Shown here: positions 4,307-21,707 of the stretch, one piece after another | How the letters are laid out: every line of letters starts with the position of its first letter | Position numbering within the stretch: position 1 is the stretch's first letter | Origin: a virus | Virus record (IMG/VR): IMGVR_UViG_3300042350_000744 | Span: 1 to 22,541 of that record | DNA length: 22,541 nt | Direction: 5' to 3' (one strand) | Made by a program: the position numbers and the translations under genes | Notes under the pieces: model-generated | What the model saw: only the letters and a program-made list of their open reading frames with translations | Databases searched by the model: none | Told to the model about the DNA's origin: nothing

Positions 4307-4815
4307 TAGATGAACATGAAGTCAGATTCATAATTTCCGTGAGTTGTGTCGGTAGCTTTTATGTCGCTATCGCGGTTATTTTCGGATGTAAAATTTGCGA
4401 ATAGCGATTTATTTTCCTGCAGATATTTTATCACACGGTTCGTGTAGAACTCAGCCTTTTGATTGTACTGACGCATGGCGAATGATAACTCAGAGGCTTC
4501 CACGCCTTCGGAATTTTCCCCGCTTTCGCGCTGAATACCTTTGTTTGTTATCTTACGTGATAGCGCATAAGACGCATCAGCGGCAGCCCTCCACGCGATG
4601 ACCATTTGAATCTTACCAACTAGCACTTGCTCGTTAGATGATAGCGTTTGCGCATTGTATTTGGTAAGTAAGTCCGTATAGAAATACGTTCCAAGTAACG
4701 ATTGCGCCCACATATCGGAGGCTGTACGGATGAACGGTTGAAAATCGCGCGTATCAGCGTTAGCACCTACGTTCGTGGTGTTCTTTAGCAGCGTATCTGT
4801 AACAAAATAAATCAT
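4306..4815 (-). CDS. Head-tail connector protein (DUF6712-like)
   Basis: This 169-residue protein is mostly helical. Features seen: FQPFIRTASDMWAQSLLG near residues 26-43, a Y/F-rich turn, then a long helix VGKIQMVIAWRAAADASYALSRKI at about 66-90, and a late helix ELSFAMRQYNQKAEFYTNRVIKYL. This resembles the DUF6712 family of small head-tail connectors (gp6-like adaptors) that sit next to portal in Bacteroidota phages, where they form a ring below the portal. Its place directly downstream of portal supports the call. It is one of the few genes here with a good Shine-Dalgarno sequence (AAAGGAG, 7 nt before ATG). The portal stop and this start overlap by 4 nt, and its stop overlaps the next gene by 1 nt. 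Confidence 0.75.
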   Translation of the reverse strand: MIYFVTDTLLKNTTNVGANADTRDFQPFIRTASDMWAQSLLGTYFYTDLLTKYNAQTLSSNEQVLVGKIQMVIAWRAAADASYALSRKITNKGIQRESGENSEGVEASELSFAMRQYNQKAEFYTNRVIKYLQENKSLFANFTSENNRDSDIKATDTTHGNYESDFMFI

Positions 4816-5984
4816 TGTGCCGCTCCTTTCTCAACAATAACATCACCGATGATTTGGTAATTCACAATAGATATTTTTGCTTTCACGCCTGACAAATTAA
4901 TGAGGTCATCGAAGATATTTTGCACCACTTCACGGGTCGGCATTACGAAATTCTTTTCCCAAATAACGTAAGCCTGTTTAATATCAGTTCCTGAGCCTAA
5001 CTTACCGCTAACACGGATACCCATGAGGATTGGGTCGATGGTGTGCGCTTGACAAATCTTCTCATCAATACGTCCATCAGTCTGAATGAACAGTTGGTCG
5101 TTGTTGTTTGTCGGTATTGGTTCTAATACTGGCATTTGGTCAGCAGAATTAGCGAATACCGCGAACACACGACCTGCACTTGGCGCACCTTTAGCCTTTT
5201 CAATGCTTTCTTTGATGGCGTTTTGCTCCTCTTTACTTGCAGGTTTCTTCGGGAATTTAATCATCACCGAAGCAAACACGGAATTCTGAATATTACTCTT
5301 ATGCAAGTACGACATTTCACCGTCAAGGAATACCCAATTTAAACACGATGTATATTGAGGAATAGGGTATGGAAAATCACCGATAGAATCTAATTCGTAA
5401 CAGTAGATTTGTTTTGATTCTGTATTCTCAGGATGGTAAGGCTTATACCATTTCTTCGCCAGTTCAGTTGACCAATCATCCGCAATAAAATACAAGGACT
5501 TGTCGCGGTTAGTACGTACTTTCTCAGGCGATATGCGCTCGTATTTAACGGCCTTTTTATCCTTAACAGTTAACAGGAAATAACATCTACCGTGCATCAC
5601 AATATCACGGGTCACAAGGTCTTTAATTCGCTTGATGTTGTTGCGTGAGTTGAACATTTTCCATTCAACTATTTCACGCTGATTCATGTTTGTCTCATCA
5701 ACTTCGATTCCTCCACCGATAACGCTGCGCACTTTGAACTCAATGATAGACGAATGCAACGGGCTGATGTAGTACATCTGATTCATCAGTTGTGGGTATA
5801 GGTTATCCCCACCGAAATAAATCATTCCCTTATCACCTGTGATGCGGTTGTTGATATACGGTAACGATAAGTTACCTTCGCCAACTTCCATAAATGGCGT
5901 AGAGAATTTACTAAGCGTTGAATAGTTTTCTACCGTTGCAGCAGGTTGCTGAGGCGGTGAGAAGAATTTCATTAATCTACTCAT
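4812..5984 (-). CDS. Portal protein
   Basis: Portal forms the twelve-fold DNA channel at the head vertex and docks terminase. Using the start at 5984 (MSRLMKFF) gives 390 residues. In-frame ATGs at 6011 and 5972 are alternatives, but 6011 would overlap the upstream gene by 35 nt, while 5984 overlaps by 8 nt. Recognisable parts are an early GDKGMIYFGGDNLYPQLM segment, a wing region with ISPLHSSIIEFKVRSVIGGG, DIVMHGRCYFLL, a middle ISPEKVR strand, and the near-C-terminal block AHTIDPILMGIRVSGKLGSG. The last is characteristic of portal proteins of Bacteroidota siphophages. The gene is unusual in position: it follows capsid and tail-tube genes instead of lying between terminase and protease. It is followed at once by the connector gene. 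Confidence 0.85.
   Translation of the reverse strand: MSRLMKFFSPPQQPAATVENYSTLSKFSTPFMEVGEGNLSLPYINNRITGDKGMIYFGGDNLYPQLMNQMYYISPLHSSIIEFKVRSVIGGGIEVDETNMNQREIVEWKMFNSRNNIKRIKDLVTRDIVMHGRCYFLLTVKDKKAVKYERISPEKVRTNRDKSLYFIADDWSTELAKKWYKPYHPENTESKQIYCYELDSIGDFPYPIPQYTSCLNWVFLDGEMSYLHKSNIQNSVFASVMIKFPKKPASKEEQNAIKESIEKAKGAPSAGRVFAVFANSADQMPVLEPIPTNNNDQLFIQTDGRIDEKICQAHTIDPILMGIRVSGKLGSGTDIKQAYVIWEKNFVMPTREVVQNIFDDLINLSGVKAKISIVNYQIIGDVIVEKGAAQ
4823..4829 (-). promoter_or_regulatory. Shine-Dalgarno site of the connector gene
   Basis: On the minus strand AAAGGAG lies 7 nt before the ATG at 4815, inside the last codons of the portal gene. It is the only textbook ribosome-binding site noticed near a start in this window, where most starts have A/T-rich leaders. 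It supports 4815 as the true start. Confidence 0.55.
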
Positions 5985-6318
5985 AAACAGTTCCAGTTGT
6001 GTTAGCGTCAATCACATTCAATATACCTTCTTCGAGCGCATCACCAACGATGGCTGCGGGGTTAGTGGTGACTGTTGCGGTTTGATAAACTCTGTATGTA
6101 TATTGACCTGCTGCGAGTGTTACGGTTACACCTTCTTTGATTTCAAAATGATTGAAACGTTCAGGGTATGCCGACACGTCAGGCGTGGTGAAATATACAG
6201 GTGATGGGTTTGTCAGATCGCGGATAACTTCAAATAAGTATGACGGACTTGTCAGCGTTGCCGATTCACTCAGCGTTAGCACAACATCGTTTTCATCACC
6301 TTTGTAAAGCACTATCAT
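5977..6318 (-). CDS. Small beta-rich tail/virion protein (Bacteroidota phage family)
   Basis: This 113-residue protein reads as an all-beta fold: MIVLYKGDENDVVLTLSES, then YLFEVIRD, a Y-P-ERFNHFEI strand, and an AAGQYTYRVYQT strand. This pattern recurs in short proteins encoded near tail-fibre or tail-tip genes of Bacteroidota phages, whose exact role is not established. It starts just downstream of a hairpin that appears to end transcription from the tail-tube gene, and its end overlaps the portal start by 8 nt. Its start (AGGTATGATAGT) closely matches that of the 405-residue structural protein at 16153, as do its first residues MIVL. Confidence 0.6.
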   Translation of the reverse strand: MIVLYKGDENDVVLTLSESATLTSPSYLFEVIRDLTNPSPVYFTTPDVSAYPERFNHFEIKEGVTVTLAAGQYTYRVYQTATVTTNPAAIVGDALEEGILNVIDANTTGTVYE

Positions 6319-6971: not shown

Positions 6972-7934
6972 TTAGGATTGTTTTGCGATACCGTAGGTTA
7001 CGATTTCAGACGGGTTAACATAGTTAACACCGAATTTGAACGCACCGATTGCGCGGATTTTACGGTCACCAGTTGTCTTGCTCATGTCGATAGTTTGCAG
7101 AGATTCTGCATCGCTAACGAGGTCAGTCAAGAAGATGAAGTTATTGGACAATGAAGCCATCATCACGTAGTCAGAGATTCCTTCGCACACGGTCAAGGTG
7201 TAACCCAAGAATTTCAAGTCAGCATCTTTGGTGGTGTATGCCTCAGCAGATGCAGTTGCAACCGCTAAACGGTAAGCATCAGCAACAACAGGCGATACCA
7301 TCCAAAGGATTTGTGCTTTCTTTTTCTTAAGTGCTTTCGGGATTGCGTTGTAAACTTTCGTCAACTCAGCAACTACGTTAGAAGAGGTAACGGTAGTACC
7401 TGTGATACGGTTAACACCTGTTACGATACCATCTTCAAATGCGAATTGTTTTTCCAAACCATCGCACAATTCAAGGTAGTCGTTAGTGTTCCCATCGGTG
7501 TCACCTTGGAAGGTCAACACTTCAAGTTCTTCGTTTACTTTCTTACGAAGTTCTTCGTAGAAGTGAGTGGCAAACTGTGCCATGCTTCCACCTGACATGA
7601 AATCACCGGGAGCAGAGCCGGGTTTCATCCAGTCAGCAAGGAATGAAGTTTCGATGTCATCTTGACAAATCTCAACTCCGATTTGGAATTTGCATGGTTC
7701 CATTTCCTTAGCGGAAAGTGTTTGGTTGGTAGCCGCGAAGTCGCAACCTGCTTCTTGCAGTACGTCAGCGAACAACACGTTAGCGATTTTCGTTTTCTCC
7801 TTAATGTTCAGGAGTTGGCGGAATCGTGCTGTAGAGCGATCGGAAAGGAGTGTCTTAGCGTAGAACTCCTTTGGATTCACTTGCAAAAGAGCGGATGAAG
7901 CTACGCTCAAATCAAATAGATACTTCTTTGCCAT
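6972..7934 (-). CDS. Major capsid protein, HK97 fold
   Basis: This 320-residue protein is the likely major head subunit. After a short helical N-terminus come features matching small HK97-fold capsid proteins of Bacteroidota phages: an early KIANVLFADVLQEAG segment, FQIGVEICQDDIETSFLADWMKPGS, and a long spine-like helix region FATHFYEELRKKVNEELEVLTFQGD (E-loop/P-domain side). Later there is a PKALKKKKAQILWMVSPVVADAYRLA helix and the end block RKIRAIGAFKFGVNYVNPSEIVTYG, the usual closing strand. It follows the protease/scaffold gene by only 7 nt, the expected order for protease, scaffold and capsid. A hairpin follows the stop. No long N-terminal delta domain is present, in agreement with a separate scaffold. 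Confidence 0.85.
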   Translation of the reverse strand: MAKKYLFDLSVASSALLQVNPKEFYAKTLLSDRSTARFRQLLNIKEKTKIANVLFADVLQEAGCDFAATNQTLSAKEMEPCKFQIGVEICQDDIETSFLADWMKPGSAPGDFMSGGSMAQFATHFYEELRKKVNEELEVLTFQGDTDGNTNDYLELCDGLEKQFAFEDGIVTGVNRITGTTVTSSNVVAELTKVYNAIPKALKKKKAQILWMVSPVVADAYRLAVATASAEAYTTKDADLKFLGYTLTVCEGISDYVMMASLSNNFIFLTDLVSDAESLQTIDMSKTTGDRKIRAIGAFKFGVNYVNPSEIVTYGIAKQS

Positions 7935-7941
7935 GTGGTTT

Positions 7942-9297
7942 TTATTTTTCGGTTTCTGATTTTACAATTGTGTTTTCATAGAACGCCATAAACTTTTCGT
8001 GTGCGCTCATTTCTGTTTTCGCAGGTTCTTTGATTTCCTCCTCAACGGCAGGTTCACCTTCTGCGAGTTGTTTGGTTTCTGCGATGATGGAGGTCAACTC
8101 ATCAATCATAGGTTTAATCAACGCCATGATTTCGGCTTTCTGTGCATCGGTCAATGCGCCTGATGTTTCACCTTCAGGTGCGGGTGTTTCGGCAGCAGCA
8201 ACTTCTTCGGCAGGTGCATCTTCGGTCGGTTTTTCTTCCTCGGTAGGTGCGGCAGTTTCGGCCATTTCTTCTTCCTTAACTTCGGTAAACTCACCATTAA
8301 CAACGGTGTAAATCATCTTACCGATTTTATGTTCACCGTCAGGGAGTGTGATTTTTTTGCTCATATTTTTAGCTTTATTGATTACGTCGATGAAGCGTTG
8401 ATTCTGTTTTAAAATGACATCCATTGACGCTAGTTCTTCGGTTGTCACGAATTTATGCGTGATGTGTTCGGCTGAAAGCAAAAGGCTTCCACTATTTTTT
8501 TTATAGTCAGCAACAAAGTAGAACGATGTTGTTCCATCTCCGTTGTCGATTGAATCAACTGGCATTAACTCATCATACGCTAACCCCGTTTCCTCGGCAA
8601 GTTCACGTATTGCAGCGCGTTCAAGGGTTTCGTCTCCTTCAATTTTACCACCTGCAAATCCCCATACTGACGGTTCAAAGGTGTCGTTATCTTTACGCTT
8701 AAGCATGAGAGATTTATCGCCGTCAAGAACTATGACATCTGCATAGTTCGGTTTTTGTTCACTCATTTTTAGCCCAAGGAATCCCTCTACGGAATAACCC
8801 ACCTGACCATTTGCCACTAGCGATTCGTAGTACGCAGGGTCAGTAACCTGAGACACTACGAATAAAGTGCCTTTAGGACACTCGATACCGAATGTTGAAT
8901 AAGACTTATCCTGCTTTGGATTCTCCACTAACCATGCTTCTAAGATGTACGCAGGTACTTTCTTTTCCGCGTTATGTTCAAGGTTGAACAGGTCGCGGTT
9001 AGTTAGATTTTCCATGAAGCGTGAGTAGATTTTTTCAATCTCATCCTCGGTAAACTTCACGTAGTGTTCACCCATATCCTCATCAGCCTTGCGATAGATT
9101 TCCATCGGAATCATTGCAGGTGCTGCGATGCGATACTTTACGTTATCTGAAAAGAACTGTTTTGTTTCCGCTTCAAACGCCACACCCTTAACCTTGATAG
9201 CAGGTCGAGAGGTAAAGGCAATCATATCAACTCCGAGCGGCTGCCCTTCATCGTTCGTGCCTTCGATGTCAACTTCGTAAACGGGAACTTTTTCCAT
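7942..9297 (-). CDS. Prohead protease (XkdF-like) - Nudix hydrolase - scaffold fusion
   Basis: This 451-residue protein has three parts. Residues 1-177 resemble the XkdF-like putative serine protease of phage heads: SRPAIKVKGVAF, LEHNAEKKVPAYILEAWLVE with candidate catalytic His108, and GQVGYSVEGF with candidate Ser169. Residues about 184-307 are a Nudix hydrolase. The box is complete, G217-x5-E223-x7-R231-E232-L-x-E235-E236-x-G238-L, after FEPSVWGFAG and before FYFVADY. Residues 312-451 look like scaffold: LPDGEHKIGKMIYTVVNGEF, then a Pro/Glu/Ala-rich linker, a helix (TDAQKAEIMALIKPMIDELTS) and a charged tail. Nudix enzymes hydrolyse nucleoside diphosphates linked to another group; the substrate cannot be told. 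It begins the left operon, directly before the capsid gene. ATGs at 8766 and 8364, at the domain edges, could be internal starts. Confidence 0.88.
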   Translation of the reverse strand: MEKVPVYEVDIEGTNDEGQPLGVDMIAFTSRPAIKVKGVAFEAETKQFFSDNVKYRIAAPAMIPMEIYRKADEDMGEHYVKFTEDEIEKIYSRFMENLTNRDLFNLEHNAEKKVPAYILEAWLVENPKQDKSYSTFGIECPKGTLFVVSQVTDPAYYESLVANGQVGYSVEGFLGLKMSEQKPNYADVIVLDGDKSLMLKRKDNDTFEPSVWGFAGGKIEGDETLERAAIRELAEETGLAYDELMPVDSIDNGDGTTSFYFVADYKKNSGSLLLSAEHITHKFVTTEELASMDVILKQNQRFIDVINKAKNMSKKITLPDGEHKIGKMIYTVVNGEFTEVKEEEMAETAAPTEEEKPTEDAPAEEVAAAETPAPEGETSGALTDAQKAEIMALIKPMIDELTSIIAETKQLAEGEPAVEEEIKEPAKTEMSAHEKFMAFYENTIVKSETEK

Positions 9298-9341
9298 TTA
9301 CTTACAAATGGAATATTTATAATTTTTGTGTTACTTTGTGC

Positions 9342-9349
9342 CAAACGTA
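9342..9349 (-). promoter_or_regulatory. Candidate Bacteroidota-type promoter (-7 element) for the head operon
   Basis: The minus strand carries TACGTTTG, an exact match to the Bacteroidota -7 consensus TAnnTTTG. Transcription would start near 9336, about 40 nt before the ATG at 9297. No clear TTTG -33 box is seen at the usual distance (TTTC at best), so the site is tentative. The same 56-nt intergenic region must also drive the divergent plus-strand genes. TTACTTTG at 9331-9338 on the plus strand is a one-mismatch candidate for that direction. Confidence 0.38.
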
Positions 9350-9353
9350 AACT

Positions 9354-9935
9354 ATGATACAGGTAAGAAATGAAACCATGCGCAACGCGCCGCATGAAAT
9401 GACAATTGGTGATTTCGAGAAAGTCACCACCGCGCTAAACAATAAGACTGACGGCATCATTGACCGATACGCCAAGGTGTTTCACATCTTAGGGTTGAGC
9501 AAAGACCTAATCGAAGATTTAGAGTCCGATGAGTTCAACGCGCTTATTCGCGAGTTCACCGACCAATCGAAAGCAGTACCGAGTGAGTGTGTCCCCTCGA
9601 TTGAAATAGACGGGGTTAAGTATGTTGCCTTTACAGATAGCCTAAAAATTAAGGTCAAAGACATGAAGTTGATTGAAAAGTTCGTCGGCATCGGCACTTC
9701 ATGGGTTGCTGAGATGATGGGTGTGCTGTTTAAGAAAGAAGGACTGAGCAACATGGAACACTATGACGTTAACCACATCAAGCACAAGGCTAAGATGTTC
9801 CGTGAGAAGGTGACGGCAGACGTTGCGTTCCCGTACATGATGGAGTTGAGTGGTCGAATGGTGCAATCATTACAGAAAGAAACAAATGCAGATAAAACAA
9901 CTACTACCGAAGGAGTGGTCAGAACTATCGACTGA
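9354..9935 (+). CDS. Tail-assembly-chaperone-like protein 1 (putative)
   Basis: This 193-residue, mostly helical protein starts at 9354 on the plus strand; an ATG at 9378 is a possible alternative. It has MTIGDFEKVTTALNN followed by DRYAKVFHILGLSKDLIEDL and LESDEFNALIREF, a helix pattern like siphophage tail assembly chaperones, which coat the tape measure before tube assembly. A second similar half follows from SIEIDGVKYVAF to the C-terminus. This half aligns by eye with residues about 85-190 of the next gene, so the two look like diverged copies. The next gene begins 50 nt before this stop. Odd points: it is one of only two plus-strand genes, and chaperones normally lie directly upstream of, and on the same strand as, the tape measure. 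The role is inferred. Confidence 0.6.
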   Translation: MIQVRNETMRNAPHEMTIGDFEKVTTALNNKTDGIIDRYAKVFHILGLSKDLIEDLESDEFNALIREFTDQSKAVPSECVPSIEIDGVKYVAFTDSLKIKVKDMKLIEKFVGIGTSWVAEMMGVLFKKEGLSNMEHYDVNHIKHKAKMFREKVTADVAFPYMMELSGRMVQSLQKETNADKTTTTEGVVRTID

Positions 9936-10671
9936 TAGGTTTATCGAGTTTAAGCAGTTAAATCCCGAAGAATTTACATCGGTTATCGAGTACCGCATCG
10001 CTCAATTGTGTGTGTTGCTCGATACCGATACTACGGAATTTGATTTCGATGAACTTTACGACACCGAACTGGAGGAAATCATGGATGGTATACGTTTTAT
10101 TAAGCGTGAACCGCGTGGTAATCTTAGAAAATCTATCAACGGATTAATGTTTAAGCCCGTCGAGACCATGACCATCGGTGAATTTATCGACGTGTCCACA
10201 CTCATGCAGGACTTTTATCAGAACTTCACGCAGATTCTTTGCTATGCCTACCGAGGTACGGACGAAAACGCATGGGGAAAGGTAATCTATCAGCCTATTG
10301 ATACGATACCATTCGATGATAGACGAAGGATGTTCGATAAACTTTCCATAGACCAAACATACCCAGCTGTTAACGCATGGGTTGACCGCGTTCAATGGTT
10401 CATAACAGAATACACAGGGCTATTTGATACCGACCCTGAGCCAGTTGCGGAGGAGGATTTGAAAGAGATGGACGCGGAAGAAAAGAAAGTTGCGCAGCAG
10501 CAGAACAAATTCCAAAAATGGGCGTGGGAAAAAACAATCCACGACCTATGCGATGGCGATTTGACGAAGTTCGACGAGGTTACAGATATGCCCGCAACAT
10601 TCGTATTCAATATGATGTCTATGCGTTCTGATTTGGGTATCTCAGGTGGTAAATCTCATCCGCAATTTTAA
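9886..10671 (+). CDS. Tail-assembly-chaperone-like protein 2 (putative)
   Basis: The preferred start is 9886 (MQIKQLLPKEWSEL, 261 residues), because it follows an A-rich leader and the upstream ATG at 9850 adds only 12 unlikely residues. The N-terminal part (WSELSTDRFIEFKQL, then YRIAQLCVLLDTD) and the middle MTIGEFIDVSTLMQDFYQNFTQILCYAY, followed by FDDRRRMFDKLSIDQ, mirror the layout of the preceding gene and resemble Bacteroidota phage tail assembly chaperones. An acidic linker (about 195-225) leads to a helical C-terminal part with FQKWAWEKTIHDLCDGDLTKFDEVTDMP. It overlaps the first gene by 50 nt in the +1 frame and the convergent glycosyltransferase gene by 53 nt. Function is inferred from pattern only. 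Confidence 0.6.
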   Translation: MQIKQLLPKEWSELSTDRFIEFKQLNPEEFTSVIEYRIAQLCVLLDTDTTEFDFDELYDTELEEIMDGIRFIKREPRGNLRKSINGLMFKPVETMTIGEFIDVSTLMQDFYQNFTQILCYAYRGTDENAWGKVIYQPIDTIPFDDRRRMFDKLSIDQTYPAVNAWVDRVQWFITEYTGLFDTDPEPVAEEDLKEMDAEEKKVAQQQNKFQKWAWEKTIHDLCDGDLTKFDEVTDMPATFVFNMMSMRSDLGISGGKSHPQF

Positions 10672-11326
10672 TTTGTTCGGTTTCCTTTTTATGAAACTTT
10701 TCAAAGATGCTATCACCGCGTTCCGAGTCTTGAGGCATAAGCCAACGGTGCGCGTGTGGTAGTAGTGTGATTGGTTGATTATACATCGCACATTCCAAAG
10801 AGAATAGTAAATCGGTCATACATTGGCGTTCGTCATATGCAATCCATTCAGGTTTCACAACCGATGTATCAAATGCGCTAACACCTGTGCCTAATACGTC
10901 CACTTGCCACTTGCCACGTATCTCCTCGGCGAAGTGAAAACGTTTATGTTGCGAATAGTACGAACGGTTACGACCTAGTAATAACCTACCGTGATGCGTT
11001 ACTATTGGATTAACGCGCAATGCCTCAGTCATTGTGCGCACATAGTCCGATGGGTATAGTATATCATCATCAAGCGTGAAGTATTGTTCGCGCTGCATGG
11101 TATCAAGGAACACATACTTACCGTTGTCTTTTAGGTCATGCTCTTGAACGCGCAGGTACATAGAACTTTTCCCTACCTGCTTGAAATATCTCAACTCATC
11201 AGGAATACGCTCATACTCATTCAGGCAAATGCGAATAACATCGAACTGACCGTCGATAGTTTTAAGCATATTAAGCAATAGCGGCAACCGCTTTGGATAC
11301 GTTGCAATGTTAGCGGTTACAAGCAT
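10619..11326 (-). CDS. GT-A-type glycosyltransferase (third of cassette)
   Basis: This 235-residue protein begins with a Rossmann-like strand and helix (MLVTANIATYPKRLPLLLNML). It has a second strand with the candidate metal-binding motif YFTLDDDILYP (Asp86-88), as in GT-A nucleotide-sugar transferases. The later VDVLGTGVSAFDTSV and DLLFSLECAM segments resemble the acceptor region of GT-A enzymes, and PHAHRW near residue 195 offers a late His. It would transfer a sugar from a nucleotide donor; donor and acceptor cannot be told. The start overlaps the 66-residue gene by 10 nt. The 3' end overlaps the convergent plus-strand gene by 53 nt. No signal peptide or membrane span is seen, so it is likely cytoplasmic. 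Confidence 0.75.
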   Translation of the reverse strand: MLVTANIATYPKRLPLLLNMLKTIDGQFDVIRICLNEYERIPDELRYFKQVGKSSMYLRVQEHDLKDNGKYVFLDTMQREQYFTLDDDILYPSDYVRTMTEALRVNPIVTHHGRLLLGRNRSYYSQHKRFHFAEEIRGKWQVDVLGTGVSAFDTSVVKPEWIAYDERQCMTDLLFSLECAMYNQPITLLPHAHRWLMPQDSERGDSIFEKFHKKETEQIKIADEIYHLRYPNQNA

Positions 11327-11517
11327 GGTCGTAGTGTTGCTATTTCCTTGTCGATGTCGTACGAGAACTTCACGCGGTTGTTCTTATTGTGCTTGTTCCA
11401 TTGTGTTGACACGAGCTGTCTAGCGGATTGCACCTCATGTGGTTGCAGGTAAATAGTTGCGCTGCCATTTGCTAACGCAGCGATACAAGCGTCTAAATAT
11501 TTTTCCTTTTTCTTCAT
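11317..11517 (-). CDS. Hypothetical small protein in glycosyltransferase cassette
   Basis: This 66-residue, lysine- and asparagine-rich protein is not recognised. Its first 38 residues are probably helical (KKEKYLDACIAALANG, then PHEVQSARQLVSTQW). The central part (NKHNKNNRVKFSYD) is basic. It lies 4 nt after the GT25-like gene and its stop overlaps the next glycosyltransferase start by 10 nt, which supports translation. No function is proposed. Confidence 0.5.
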   Translation of the reverse strand: MKKKEKYLDACIAALANGSATIYLQPHEVQSARQLVSTQWNKHNKNNRVKFSYDIDKEIATLRPCL

Positions 11518-11521
11518 GATG

Positions 11522-12121
11522 CTAAGATAAATATTTTAATTTATCACCTTGTAGATTCACGCCAGTAATATCAGACAACGAGTTTAACTGCCATGCGTAA
11601 CACTTGCGCGTGATAAGGCATTTGTGCGATTGCTGAAACTCCGTGAATAGCACATCAACTTTCCACATACGTGAGTTCAACACGTTTAACAACGCGGGTA
11701 TTGAAGACTTACGAATAGCATACGCATGAGTGCAATATACTTCGAGTGCCTTGTCGAACTTTTCATTATACGGTTCAATGGGTTTCTTTGATAGTGTTTT
11801 ATTCCCACCGAAATAAACTAACTCAACATCGCTAGGCACGTCATTGAGTATAGCGGTTGTCCATTCCTTATCTAGTACACAATCATCTTCCATTACTATA
11901 CACCAATCGTATTCCAATGTGGTGAACATATTCAGTACTTTCTTATGCGATTCGAGGCAACCGAAATGGCCTTGCAGGTTGGCACGTTTAACGTCGGGGA
12001 ATTTCTTCTTTCCGTTCACACCTTCGACAAAGAAATAGTCATCTATTCCCATGTTCATGAACTGCCTTACGATGTGTTGCCGCCTGTCATTGCGGTGTGA
12101 TAAATTAATAACGAGTATCAT
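11522..12121 (-). CDS. Glycosyltransferase family 25-like protein (second of cassette)
   Basis: This 199-residue protein matches the GT25 (LPS glycosyltransferase) pattern: an opening VINLSHRNDRRQHIVRQFMNMG, then FFVEGVNGK, the block GHFGCLESHKKVL (residues 51-63), and the metal-binding IVMEDDCVLD with EDD at 78-80. GT25 enzymes add sugars, usually galactose or glucose, to lipooligosaccharide or collagen-like acceptors. The C-terminal region with THAYAIRKSSIPALL also fits the family. It is shorter than typical members (about 250 residues), lacking part of the C-terminal region. The ATG overlaps the upstream glycosyltransferase stop (12118-12121). The acceptor is unknown; it could be a virion protein, DNA, or the host surface. 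Confidence 0.82.
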   Translation of the reverse strand: MILVINLSHRNDRRQHIVRQFMNMGIDDYFFVEGVNGKKKFPDVKRANLQGHFGCLESHKKVLNMFTTLEYDWCIVMEDDCVLDKEWTTAILNDVPSDVELVYFGGNKTLSKKPIEPYNEKFDKALEVYCTHAYAIRKSSIPALLNVLNSRMWKVDVLFTEFQQSHKCLITRKCYAWQLNSLSDITGVNLQGDKLKYLS

Positions 12122-12759
12122 TTAATAGAGTTTAACGGAAACTTTTTGCGTTCATCATGGTGCATCATTGAACAATCATTTCCCATATGGTCGCATATTG
12201 ATTTGTACGGTTGTATGATAGGCACATGATGACGTTGCAAGTGTTCGGTAATGTACTTACCAACACCTGATGAGGCGTTCAGGTTTAACCATCTGTCAGG
12301 TACGTTAGGCATACGGTAGTTGAATACCTTGCGTAGTGTCTTGTTGGATATAGCGAAGTGAGCATCTACCCAACCTATCTGTCTGTATAAATTGTTCAAT
12401 CTCTTAGGTTGATAGTTCACCCATACCGATTCTCTATCATCGCGGTGGTAGTGTAGTACACCGTCTTCGGTAAACCGCATAGCGTCTATCAATGCCTTGG
12501 TGTCCCAGTCTCCGAAATCATCCTGCGCGAATACAAACCAATCGGCATCGGTTGTTGATGCGTGGTTAAATGCAACTTGCCAATGTTTGTGAAATCCTTT
12601 CTTACCGAGGTGTTGCGGTGAACGTAAAGTGTGAAGCGTGGTGATGAAATCAGAATGGTCATCCACTACCGTAACACTCCCAACCGTACTGAGTTGGCGA
12701 GCGCAATCAAGTAGTAATTTTTCCCTATTGTAAGAGAAAATATATGAATGAATTTTCAT
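12118..12759 (-). CDS. GT-A-like glycosyltransferase (first of cassette)
   Basis: This 213-residue protein starts MKIHSYIFSYNREKLLLDCARQL and has VTVVDDHSD at about residues 29-37, the usual nucleotide-binding start of GT2-type folds. WFVFAQDDFGDWD at 74-86 carries the acidic motif QDD that would hold the metal. FHKHWQVAFNHA between them resembles the G-x-x-x-A-x-N-x-A/G helix of GT2 enzymes. The later HFAISNKTLRKVF and MPNVPDRWLN segments are typical of the acceptor half. It is coupled by ATGA overlaps to the upstream 136-residue gene (12756-12759) and the downstream GT25-like gene. Substrates cannot be told. Confidence 0.72.
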   Translation of the reverse strand: MKIHSYIFSYNREKLLLDCARQLSTVGSVTVVDDHSDFITTLHTLRSPQHLGKKGFHKHWQVAFNHASTTDADWFVFAQDDFGDWDTKALIDAMRFTEDGVLHYHRDDRESVWVNYQPKRLNNLYRQIGWVDAHFAISNKTLRKVFNYRMPNVPDRWLNLNASSGVGKYITEHLQRHHVPIIQPYKSICDHMGNDCSMMHHDERKKFPLNSIK

Positions 12760-13166
12760 TTCAAATAACTAGGAGTGTCGCTTCCGATGTAGTTAAAGTC
12801 AACTGTTACAACTGGTCTATTGCGTAGCTTGTCGAGTTTCTTCGGTACTTTCAATACATCGTATTTCTGTACGTACCATTCTAAAAAATCCGAATACACT
12901 TGCAGGAATATCGCTTGAACTTTCGGTCGCTTGAACCACTTATCGGTGATGCGTTGCGGTGCGATATACTTCGTTCCCTCATCGAGAAAGAAATAATAGA
13001 ATCGCGTATTGATGATGCAATTCATATTCCCATCCTCCTCCACAGTTAGCGAGATACGTACGCTGTCATACATCGCCCATGTGTCCACTAATCCGAGATC
13101 GCGGATGACGCGCTTTAGTTCCCATGCCAAAGCGTTACGCTCTTTATATTTTACCTTGTATGCCAT
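12756..13166 (-). CDS. Putative neck/tail-completion protein (HK97 gp10-like, tentative)
   Basis: This 136-residue protein has an N-terminal helix (NALAWELKRVIRDLGLV), then DSVRISLTVEEDGNMNCIINTRFYYFFLDEGT, and PQRITDKWFKRPKVQAIFLQVYSDFLEWYVQKYDVL. The pattern of a D-S-V/I strand, a Y-x-x-x-x-(D/E)-x-G-T turn and a late amphipathic helix recalls HK97 gp10-like tail completion proteins. A Bacteroidota variant often lies beside the tape measure gene. It begins 3 nt after the tape measure stop. Function is inferred from layout; direct homology is uncertain. Confidence 0.5.
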   Translation of the reverse strand: MAYKVKYKERNALAWELKRVIRDLGLVDTWAMYDSVRISLTVEEDGNMNCIINTRFYYFFLDEGTKYIAPQRITDKWFKRPKVQAIFLQVYSDFLEWYVQKYDVLKVPKKLDKLRNRPVVTVDFNYIGSDTPSYLK

Positions 13167-13169
13167 AGT

Positions 13170-14936
13170 TTAAAGTTCGGACAAGTTACGTATTTTATTC
13201 AATCGCGATTGCGTTCCTGAAATTTCTGTCTCACTAACGTAAGCCCTGACGGTCATTTCTTCGGAACGTGCAGCACTAGCGTTGTTGAATTGGTTAGCGT
13301 TACCGAATAGATTGAACGCGGGTTGAACATTCGGTATAGTTGGCGCACTGAATGAACCACCACCACTAGCACCTTTGACCTGTGGCGCACCTTGCACCGC
13401 TTTGATAGCTGATGCAATACCGCTTATCACTGCTGTTACTCCTGTGGCAATGGCTGCAAGGTTAGCAGGGAATGGCACGGATTGCGCCTGAGCGATTGCA
13501 CCTGAGATTGCCTTACCAGTGTCGTATGCGATTTGTGCTAATGCGATGGTCTTTTGTAGTCCTACATTCTCTACACCTGCTGCTGTGAGTAGGTCGGAGA
13601 TGGAACGCATGAGGTTTGCTGTTGTCGCGAACGCATTGCGTTTAGCCTCTTCGATTTGTTCTGTTCTGATGCGGTCGGCTTCGGCTGCTTCGGCTGCGAT
13701 GCGGTCTTGTTCTTCCTGAGCCTTACGCGCTTCCTCAGCAACTATAGCATAGTAACGCTGCAATAGTTCTTCATCCTCTTTCTGCTGCGCCCATTCGCGT
13801 TCTAACTGTGCTTGTCGTTGCTCCTCATCCATCCGCGCAAGTTCAGCGTCTAGGTCTTGTTGGTCTTTGATTTGTTTATCCCTACGTTCCTTAGCTTTGT
13901 CGGCTGCTGCCTTGTCGCGCTTTGCCTCGAAGATTTCGATGGACTGTTCCTGCTTCTTGAGTGCATCTTCGGTTGTCTTGACCTGTTGCTCGAACACATC
14001 GTTAAAGCCTTCGGTGAAATCACCCTTTAGAATGATAGCTGCTTGTTTGGCAGCCTCTCTACGTAAGCGTAATTCTTCCTGCAATGACGCGCGGACGAAC
14101 TCTAATTTTTCTTCTTCAATACGTGCGGTATCTTTACCTGATGCCTGAGCCAATGCGAGTTCATGGTCGTAACGGTCGGTTACTTCTTTGCGAACTTTTA
14201 TCAGCGCGTCGATTTGTTTCTCTGCTGAGATTAACGCTTCCTGTGCCACTTTGATTTCCGCTTCACGTGCCTTGCGCCTTGCCTCCTCAGCACGACTAGC
14301 CTCGATGGATTCTTTCGCCCATGCTGATGCGATAAGGTTTATCAATCCAACAAATGGGAATAGAATGGCTAGTGCAATCTTAGCACCTTCGGAAAGGTTG
14401 GCAAACCATAATACTATCTCCTGAATGTAGTAAATCAACCCATCGAACGCCTTGCCTATTAAGTCCATCACCTTTTGTACGATGCCAAACTTTTGCGCCA
14501 ACTGTACAAGCGCATAAATAATACCCGCTATGACGGCCGCGATAAGGAATATCGGGTTAGTGAGTAATGCTTTGCCCATTGTCGCGAATGCAACACCGAG
14601 GTTCTTAATGCCCGACACCGCATCACCAAAGGTTATGCCCTTAGCTGCTGCCGCGAATAGCTTTGCTTTCTCTGCTGCACCCTCGAAATCCATATTTTCA
14701 AGGTCACCCTTGATAGCCCCGAACGCATTTGTCACCTGCTCATACTTCGATCCTGTCGCGAATATCTCAGCTTGTTCGTTTGCGTCCTTAATCTTATCCT
14801 TAAGTTCACCCGCTTTCTGTGCAAGTTGCTGCATCTGCTTAGGGTCTGTTGCCTTAAGCATTGCATCCTTGGTTTCCTTAAGTTCCTGTTTAAGTTCCCT
14901 AAGACCTTTTACTTCTATTTCCGCTTCGATTTTCAT
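13170..14936 (-). CDS. Tape measure protein
   Basis: The start chosen is 14936 (MKIEAEIEVKGLRELK, 588 residues), because its ATG overlaps the upstream stop as TAATG. The in-frame ATG at 15008 would overlap the upstream gene by 73 nt. Residues 1-60 are an amphipathic helix region. A hydrophobic block follows with likely membrane segments at about 128-148 (NPIFLIAAVIAGIIYALV), 165-181 and 185-205. Then come about 230 residues of charged coiled coil rich in A, E, K, Q and R. The C-terminal Ala/Gly region has AAIATGVTAVISGIASAIKAV and ends with RNLSEL. Tape measures set tail length and are ejected into the cell. At roughly 0.15 nm per helical residue, 588 residues would suggest a tail near 90 nm (inference). 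Confidence 0.85.
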   Translation of the reverse strand: MKIEAEIEVKGLRELKQELKETKDAMLKATDPKQMQQLAQKAGELKDKIKDANEQAEIFATGSKYEQVTNAFGAIKGDLENMDFEGAAEKAKLFAAAAKGITFGDAVSGIKNLGVAFATMGKALLTNPIFLIAAVIAGIIYALVQLAQKFGIVQKVMDLIGKAFDGLIYYIQEIVLWFANLSEGAKIALAILFPFVGLINLIASAWAKESIEASRAEEARRKAREAEIKVAQEALISAEKQIDALIKVRKEVTDRYDHELALAQASGKDTARIEEEKLEFVRASLQEELRLRREAAKQAAIILKGDFTEGFNDVFEQQVKTTEDALKKQEQSIEIFEAKRDKAAADKAKERRDKQIKDQQDLDAELARMDEEQRQAQLEREWAQQKEDEELLQRYYAIVAEEARKAQEEQDRIAAEAAEADRIRTEQIEEAKRNAFATTANLMRSISDLLTAAGVENVGLQKTIALAQIAYDTGKAISGAIAQAQSVPFPANLAAIATGVTAVISGIASAIKAVQGAPQVKGASGGGSFSAPTIPNVQPAFNLFGNANQFNNASAARSEEMTVRAYVSETEISGTQSRLNKIRNLSEL

Positions 14937-20525: not shown

Positions 20526-21707
20526 TCACATTACCATGTACCCCGACCCTCTTGTATAGTTATCCTTGATATAAGTACCTGCATAACGTATGGCATCCAT
20601 TGCGTCATCATCCTTCTTACTCACTTGGTCTGTGATAACACCGTTAATAACCTTGCGTTTGTATTTTCTATTTTCCGTTTGCACGTTAACCGCCTCATGA
20701 TGGACAAATACCTTTTGCTCATTGATAAAGTTGATGCCTTTCTCTACTGACTTATCTGCATTCAATACATAGAACCCCGCATCTTGAAGGTCGGCAATCA
20801 TTTCAGGTCTGGCGTAGTCGGCAATTATTTCGACGGTCTTATCTACTCCGCGTTTATTCATCTGCTCAATCAACTGACCTGATGTTAATCCTGTCATGTA
20901 TAGCACTTCCTCGATAAATAATTCGTCCTCATGGAACCATACCTTAACGAGCGCGGTCGGATGTTGATACCCGAAGTCAAGGCCATAAACGAATTGTGTA
21001 AACTTCGAAGGTTTACGTTTGAGGATTTCCCACCGTGAATAAACTGCTTCTTGTAACGACCCGATTTCTCCTAGTCCGTACACCTGCCACCAGTTCCACC
21101 AATATCCTCGATTGCCTGACTTATCCTCTGCCTCAGCTTTCTCCTTTCTCACCATTAAATTCTGATACACCGCGTCAGGTATGCACTCGTTATCCCTATA
21201 AGTTAATTTTAAGAATGACGCATCGGGCTGCGTGAGTATTTCCGTGTGCGCCCAAAATTCCATGTCCGCGTTGAAGTCTAGCCATATCTCATTGCTACGA
21301 ATGATTAACGCATCGGCAATTCCATAAGGCACATGGTTAGCCTCGTTGATGAATAGTAAATCGCGTTTACCTGCTGCCTTAGCTTTACCGACTGAATCGA
21401 ATGATTTAAACTGCAATCGTGAGCCGTTGCGGAACGTATAAATCAAATCGGTTGCGTTCCATTGGTGGTCGTTCCAACGTTTCTCATCCGACATAAAGTT
21501 TTTGAAAATGTCAATAGCACCATCCTTCAAAGCGGGTAAGGTCTCAGCAGTTACCGTTGCTTTAAATCTAGTCTCCGCGATACACTTATCAATGGCGATT
21601 GGAATGATACCGTATGTCTTCCCCGAACTTGTTGAGCCTTGAACTACTTTTTTATTGCCCTTCATTTGCAGCATCTTCCGTACTGCTGTTGTCATTTGGA
21701 ACGCCAT
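20526..21707 (-). CDS. terL: Terminase large subunit
   Basis: This 393-residue protein packages DNA into the prohead. Its N-terminal ATPase has Walker A GSTSSGKT at 24-31 and Walker B LLFINEAN at 117-124 with the catalytic Glu after Asn, a known terminase variant. The coupling motif IWLDFN lies at 141-146. The C-terminal RuvC-like nuclease shows GLDFGYQHP with Asp244, IIADYARPE with Asp297, and DDDAMDAIRYA with Asp367-369/371. Length is normal to slightly short for this family. The start overlaps the TerS gene by 56 nt; ATGs at residues 5, 12 and 15 are alternatives, but the overlap remains. The family resembles PBSX/Terminase_3-type enzymes of Bacteroidota siphophages. It lies directly downstream of TerS, as expected. 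Confidence 0.94.
   Translation of the reverse strand: MAFQMTTAVRKMLQMKGNKKVVQGSTSSGKTYGIIPIAIDKCIAETRFKATVTAETLPALKDGAIDIFKNFMSDEKRWNDHQWNATDLIYTFRNGSRLQFKSFDSVGKAKAAGKRDLLFINEANHVPYGIADALIIRSNEIWLDFNADMEFWAHTEILTQPDASFLKLTYRDNECIPDAVYQNLMVRKEKAEAEDKSGNRGYWWNWWQVYGLGEIGSLQEAVYSRWEILKRKPSKFTQFVYGLDFGYQHPTALVKVWFHEDELFIEEVLYMTGLTSGQLIEQMNKRGVDKTVEIIADYARPEMIADLQDAGFYVLNADKSVEKGINFINEQKVFVHHEAVNVQTENRKYKRKVINGVITDQVSKKDDDAMDAIRYAGTYIKDNYTRGSGYMVM

Follow-up and report, generated by a model that had tools for sequence, protein, structure and literature searches.

The window analyzed here, a viral stretch of 22,541 nucleotides (IMG/VR record IMGVR_UViG_3300042350_000744), encodes an XkdF-type protease, a complete Nudix domain and a scaffold-like tail as three parts of a single open reading frame (ORF). 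We propose, with our confidence evenly divided, that this MutT-like Nudix hydrolase, putatively active, serves as optional cargo: a cassette set into the protease-scaffold linker and carried in the phage head. The phage is one of Bacteroidota-type bacteria.

A Nudix domain between prohead protease and scaffold-like tail

An initial sequence-only reading had reported a full Nudix box in a 451-residue head gene, set between a prohead protease and a scaffold. Motif, coordinates and all three parts were borne out, the gene lying on the minus strand (table 1). The box, G217-KIEGD-E223-TLERAAI-R231-E232-L-A-E235-E236-T-G-L239, is a full match to GX5EX7REUXEEXGU, and Pfam scores two domains above their cut-offs: NUDIX PF00293 (residues 186-291; 56 bits, cut-off 21, E 5e-15) and Peptidase_S78_2/XkdF PF14550 (residues 72-173; 32.2 bits, cut-off 24, E 1e-7). 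The candidate catalytic residues of the protease, His108 and Ser169, do not vary among the 17 aligned XkdF members.

Modeled alone with AlphaFold, the Nudix domain has a mean pLDDT of 94.9, and comparison of the predicted alpha/beta/alpha structure returned 606 PDB matches at E <= 0.001, with Nudix proteins taking all the top places. The full-length model gives mostly pLDDT 81-94 for the Nudix blocks, followed in the tail by a short beta element, an acidic low-confidence stretch (315-395) and helices at 384-412 and 432-450. The helices and low-confidence stretch match what a scaffold should look like, and we infer that the tail, which has no family match, is a scaffold from these predicted helices, its composition and its position before the likely major head gene.

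The Nudix and a capsid-processing peptidase share one ORF among head genes, making this a head-fused Nudix, and its position, as suggested earlier, would bring the enzyme into the prohead. The terminase genes are found at the far end of the window from this gene. Two plus-strand genes of 193 and 273 aa (window 9354-10671), without an informative PHROG match, have divergent starts beside the protease-scaffold gene in an otherwise minus-strand structural region. Small minus-strand genes (10619-12759; e.g., 199 and 213 aa) lie between structural genes and appear glycosyltransferase-like by eye.

Table 1. Features of the window discussed in the text, with positions, strand and basis of assignment
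Feature	Position	Strand	Basis
Protease-Nudix-scaffold gene, 451 aa, long form	7942..9297	-	ORF, domain matches, AlphaFold
XkdF-type prohead protease domain, residues 72-173	8779..9084	-	Pfam PF14550; His108 and Ser169 invariant
Nudix domain, residues 185-311, MutT-like	8365..8745	-	Pfam, pLDDT, PDB fold matches
Nudix box G217..L239, every consensus residue present	8581..8649	-	Motif check
Nudix cassette, 391 nt (16 nt in Nudix-less L007, L008 and L009)	8359..8749	-	DNA comparison
Candidate internal start (Met312) of a scaffold-only product	8362..8364	-	Conserved Met and A-rich upstream context; inferred
Scaffold-like C-terminal part, residues 312-451	7945..8364	-	AlphaFold; sits immediately ahead of the likely major head gene
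Likely major capsid protein, directly downstream of protease-Nudix-scaffold gene	6972..7934	-	PHROG 1623 "virion structural protein" E 5e-12
Portal protein	4812..6011	-	PHROG portal E 4e-23
Large terminase	20526..21707	-	PF04466 and PHROG matches

Presence and absence of the Nudix cassette

Five IMG/VR contigs from other datasets (L002-L006) contain the same gene with a cassette 100% identical to that of the window. Three further contigs (L007, L008 and L009) have 96-99% DNA identity to the window on both flanks and lack only the Nudix. L009 shows no mismatch to the window over the 900 nt that follow the cassette, nor does L007 over the 139 nt that precede it, and over the 10.9 kb of L009 that can be aligned the cassette is the sole large difference. 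An assembly chimera is ruled out by the six contigs with the cassette and three without. Relocation of the domain was also rejected: a search of nine Nudix-less contigs, four of them 30-35 kb, revealed no Nudix at any other site, though these contigs may be incomplete. The existence of cassette-free relatives establishes that the Nudix is dispensable and says nothing direct on delivery.

More distant members of the family, with 57-84% identity in the protease part, are without the Nudix. The homologue search suggested by the sequence-only reading recovered the three-part architecture in three lineages, accounting for 5 of 102 distinct protease cores; these 102 were the highest scorers of a larger set and do not give a population frequency. 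That reading had also considered that box residues might be lost in close relatives; no such loss was found, the residues being invariant where the domain exists, but close relatives do lack the whole domain, cleanly.

Between a loss of the cassette in L007-L009 and a gain in the window lineage, the evidence points both ways. Outgroups without the cassette favor a gain in the window lineage, whereas its right border, MSKKI in the window and L010 versus MEKKI in L007, counts against a simple gain. Compared with L007 and L009, the window (8359-10688; reverse complement 11854-14183) has ~96% identity upstream of the cassette and near 100% identity for several kb downstream, and this jump suggests that recombination boundaries may lie nearby.

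The same slot is used in other lineages. L175 encodes a diverged XkdF-Nudix-scaffold protein, and L327-L335 encode the same protein without the Nudix, at 79-97% identity in the best segment. The linker is intact in L327 (GLKLSKQ-LNTNTMEVQ); in L175, the Nudix enters exactly after KLSKQ, in frame, and SKQ (DNA AGCAAACA, an 8-bp repeat) recurs at both Nudix ends, the second copy preceding LNTNTM. Judged from this alignment, the L175 Nudix is an insertion relative to L327-L335. A third XkdF lineage with Nudix is represented by L255 and L256. In L173 and L176-L184, the Nudix instead lies between a scaffold-like tail and a ClpP-type protease unrelated to XkdF. Within the ClpP-type lineage, L177 and L340 have the Nudix and L343-L347, with 93% protease identity to L177, do not; the latter retain sequence of the last Nudix helix, which suggests that they have probably lost the domain. 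All three lineages with presence and absence use one position, between protease and scaffold. These additional fused lineages exclude a one-off unique fusion. In the domain tree, the XkdF- and ClpP-type Nudix sequences cluster together (support 93/77), but with an alignment of only 111 columns and a long branch leading to the window sequence, the tree does not separate independent gain from transfer.

L187, L207, L216, L217, L234, L241, L266, L275 and L279 show a separate recurrent fusion, in which a single ORF carries the Nudix ahead of a DUF2213-type head protease. Whole-protein tblastn against annotated phages reached no further than the protease half, which it matched in Nonlabens phages P12024L/S, and Nudix-only tblastn against annotated phages matched only Flavobacterium phage MaF61 at E <= 0.01. 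The window architecture was thus found by IMG/VR profile searches and not in named isolates; a genome contig scan returned one protease relative, which ends at a contig edge and is uninformative on the Nudix. The MaF61 domain, the nearest Nudix among annotated phages, is internal (332-439) to a 924-aa protein (L086:11011-13785), with a putative neck protein gene ~10 kb away. Burkholderia phage Bm1 has a free Nudix gene (L168:3998-4426) that overlaps a head morphogenesis gene and lies near a gene for a DUF2213 head protease; here the Nudix/head-protease association is seen unfused.

Candidate nested scaffold start

A methionine is present at the scaffold start in 92 of 92 distinct XkdF-family sequences, within an otherwise variable linker. 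Across the family this position has 60% A upstream, compared with 33% at other internal methionines, little G nearby, A at -3 in 95% and A at -12 in 98%. Flavobacterium johnsoniae initiates translation more readily where A occupies positions -3, -6, -12 and -13 (PMC6847099). The Asn, Lys and Gln codons of the linker are A-rich in any case, so the conserved methionine is a stronger argument than its A-rich context. Met312 of the window falls at the ~85th-90th percentile of internal methionines in the window, using a start-site matrix of 25 starts that has little power, and most scaffold methionines of the ClpP-type fusions are without A at -3.

Taken for the XkdF family, this pattern suggests a nested scaffold-only product made from the internal methionine. 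A protease with an in-frame nested scaffold expressed from an internal start has been demonstrated in lambda (gpC/Nu3). The window gene would resemble that system in its candidate nested protease/scaffold layout and differs in having a Nudix and an unrelated protease family, and in that its nested product is a prediction. As the Nudix is upstream of Met312, initiation there would leave the domain in the long form alone, and that form is presumably less abundant. The earlier expectation that the enzyme enters the head in many copies is therefore weakened, the conserved methionine suggesting that the scaffold is also made alone.

Enzyme type and possible roles

Catalytic residues are invariant in the aligned sequences wherever the Nudix domain is present. 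Nudix dN/dS is 0.05-0.13 in informative ClpP-type fusion pairs (protease parts 0.01-0.06), leaving out L183-L184 for having too few changes; these values describe the related fusions, the window cassette itself being invariant among its contigs. Together, low dN/dS and invariant catalytic residues indicate that the Nudix is a selected enzyme, and a decaying insertion is ruled out by the dN/dS of the related fusions. We consider it very probable that the Nudix is an accessory, active enzyme. The close relatives that do without the domain would fit a structural spacer or hitch-hiking insertion lacking any enzymatic role, but the same invariance and dN/dS make such an explanation highly improbable.

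Iyer, Burroughs and Aravind (2022) described phage proteins in which a Nudix domain is joined to MuF, to a portal or to a "capsid-protein-processing serine peptidase," proposed their packaging and injection, and assigned the head-fused Nudix to a T4 NudE-like clade acting on NAD/ADP-ribose (PMC9503650). The window protein shares with this class the fusion of Nudix and capsid-processing serine peptidase and differs in its MutT-like profile and fold. Top profile and fold matches were MutT, CTP pyrophosphohydrolase, BdRppH and MTH1, with NadM-type and NADH-type Nudix also among the matches listed; NudE/ADP-ribose pyrophosphatases were not closest, which does not place the domain in the T4 NudE-like clade. 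These comparisons point to an enzyme closer to MutT/NTP-pyrophosphohydrolases than to ADP-ribose hydrolases, although the fold does not fix the substrate.

Under the proposed mechanism, the long protease-Nudix-scaffold product would join the prohead via its scaffold tail, the scaffold-only product starting at Met312. The protease would then cut the linkers and the scaffold pieces would exit, leaving the folded Nudix, too large to follow, to remain in the head and go out with the DNA. In a new host it could remove a nucleotide, either damaged or defence-derived, and a benefit against only some hosts would result in frequent gain and loss. Carriage into the prohead seems probable to us; retention in the head and delivery may occur but we hold this somewhat short of an even chance, and an anti-defence purpose is rather doubtful. 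A domain that is optional, repeatedly gained and lost, and selected for catalysis does fit a host-dependent benefit, for example, against nucleotide-based defence.

The enzyme could alternatively act in the cytoplasm late in infection, the fusion giving strong late expression and packaging being incidental. In this view its task would be to clear up the nucleotide pool, or to break down nucleotide signals, inside the cell that makes the phage. Late expression is usual for head genes, and the MutT-like profile and fold, the invariant catalytic residues and the purifying selection in related fusions all agree with such a role, as does the free Nudix gene among Bm1 head genes, from which fusion is evidently not obligatory. 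However, the closest IMG/VR relatives of the Nudix (36-46% identity; L173-L184, L255 and L256) are all within protease-scaffold ORFs and none stands alone, which suggests that scaffold attachment matters, and we regard a purely cytoplasmic function as unlikely. We give a low probability to an anti-defence enzyme directed at ADP-ribose or NAD-derived signals, which has been the general proposal for head-fused phage Nudix (PMC9503650). Its accessory, recurrently gained and lost distribution would suit an arms race, but its best matches are MutT, CTP pyrophosphohydrolase, BdRppH and MTH1 and not ADP-ribose hydrolases.

The proposed head cargo has parallels in known systems. In Burkholderia phage Bcep781, an internal head protein (gp17) ends in a Nudix; this protein is a portal and not a protease-scaffold. 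In P22, cargo on the scaffold N terminus is encapsulated and stays inside when the scaffold exits after proteolysis; as in the window protein, the enzyme of P22 nanoreactors is N-terminal to the scaffold, but the fusion is engineered and has no protease (PMC9962691). It is a tentative suggestion that protease-scaffold genes of phages hold a slot for cargo immediately ahead of the scaffold start, through which enzymes are swapped between phages as in-frame cassettes, a natural counterpart of engineered P22 scaffold-fusion loading that would arm or disarm near-identical virions with a nucleotide hydrolase.

The sequence-only reading had allowed that this architecture might already be described and inactive. 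The fusion class is indeed published, on the evidence of PMC9503650, and hence is not new; that paper offers no experiment on it. The catalytic residues of the Nudix are invariant here. A term search of main-text passages of the paper found no presence/absence cassette among near-identical phages, nested scaffold start, XkdF or ClpP. As far as the literature searched shows, it is new that phages otherwise nearly identical differ in having or lacking the cassette, that two unrelated proteases share one position for it, that it sits ahead of a likely nested scaffold start and that its affinity is MutT-like. The role of virion-carried Nudix enzymes has so far been argued from genome context alone. 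If the proposed reading is true, natural phages that are almost the same but for one in-frame cassette would provide a ready-made genetic test of virion-carried Nudix function, and the protease-scaffold linker would represent a general route of capsid cargo loading independent of MuF or portal fusion.
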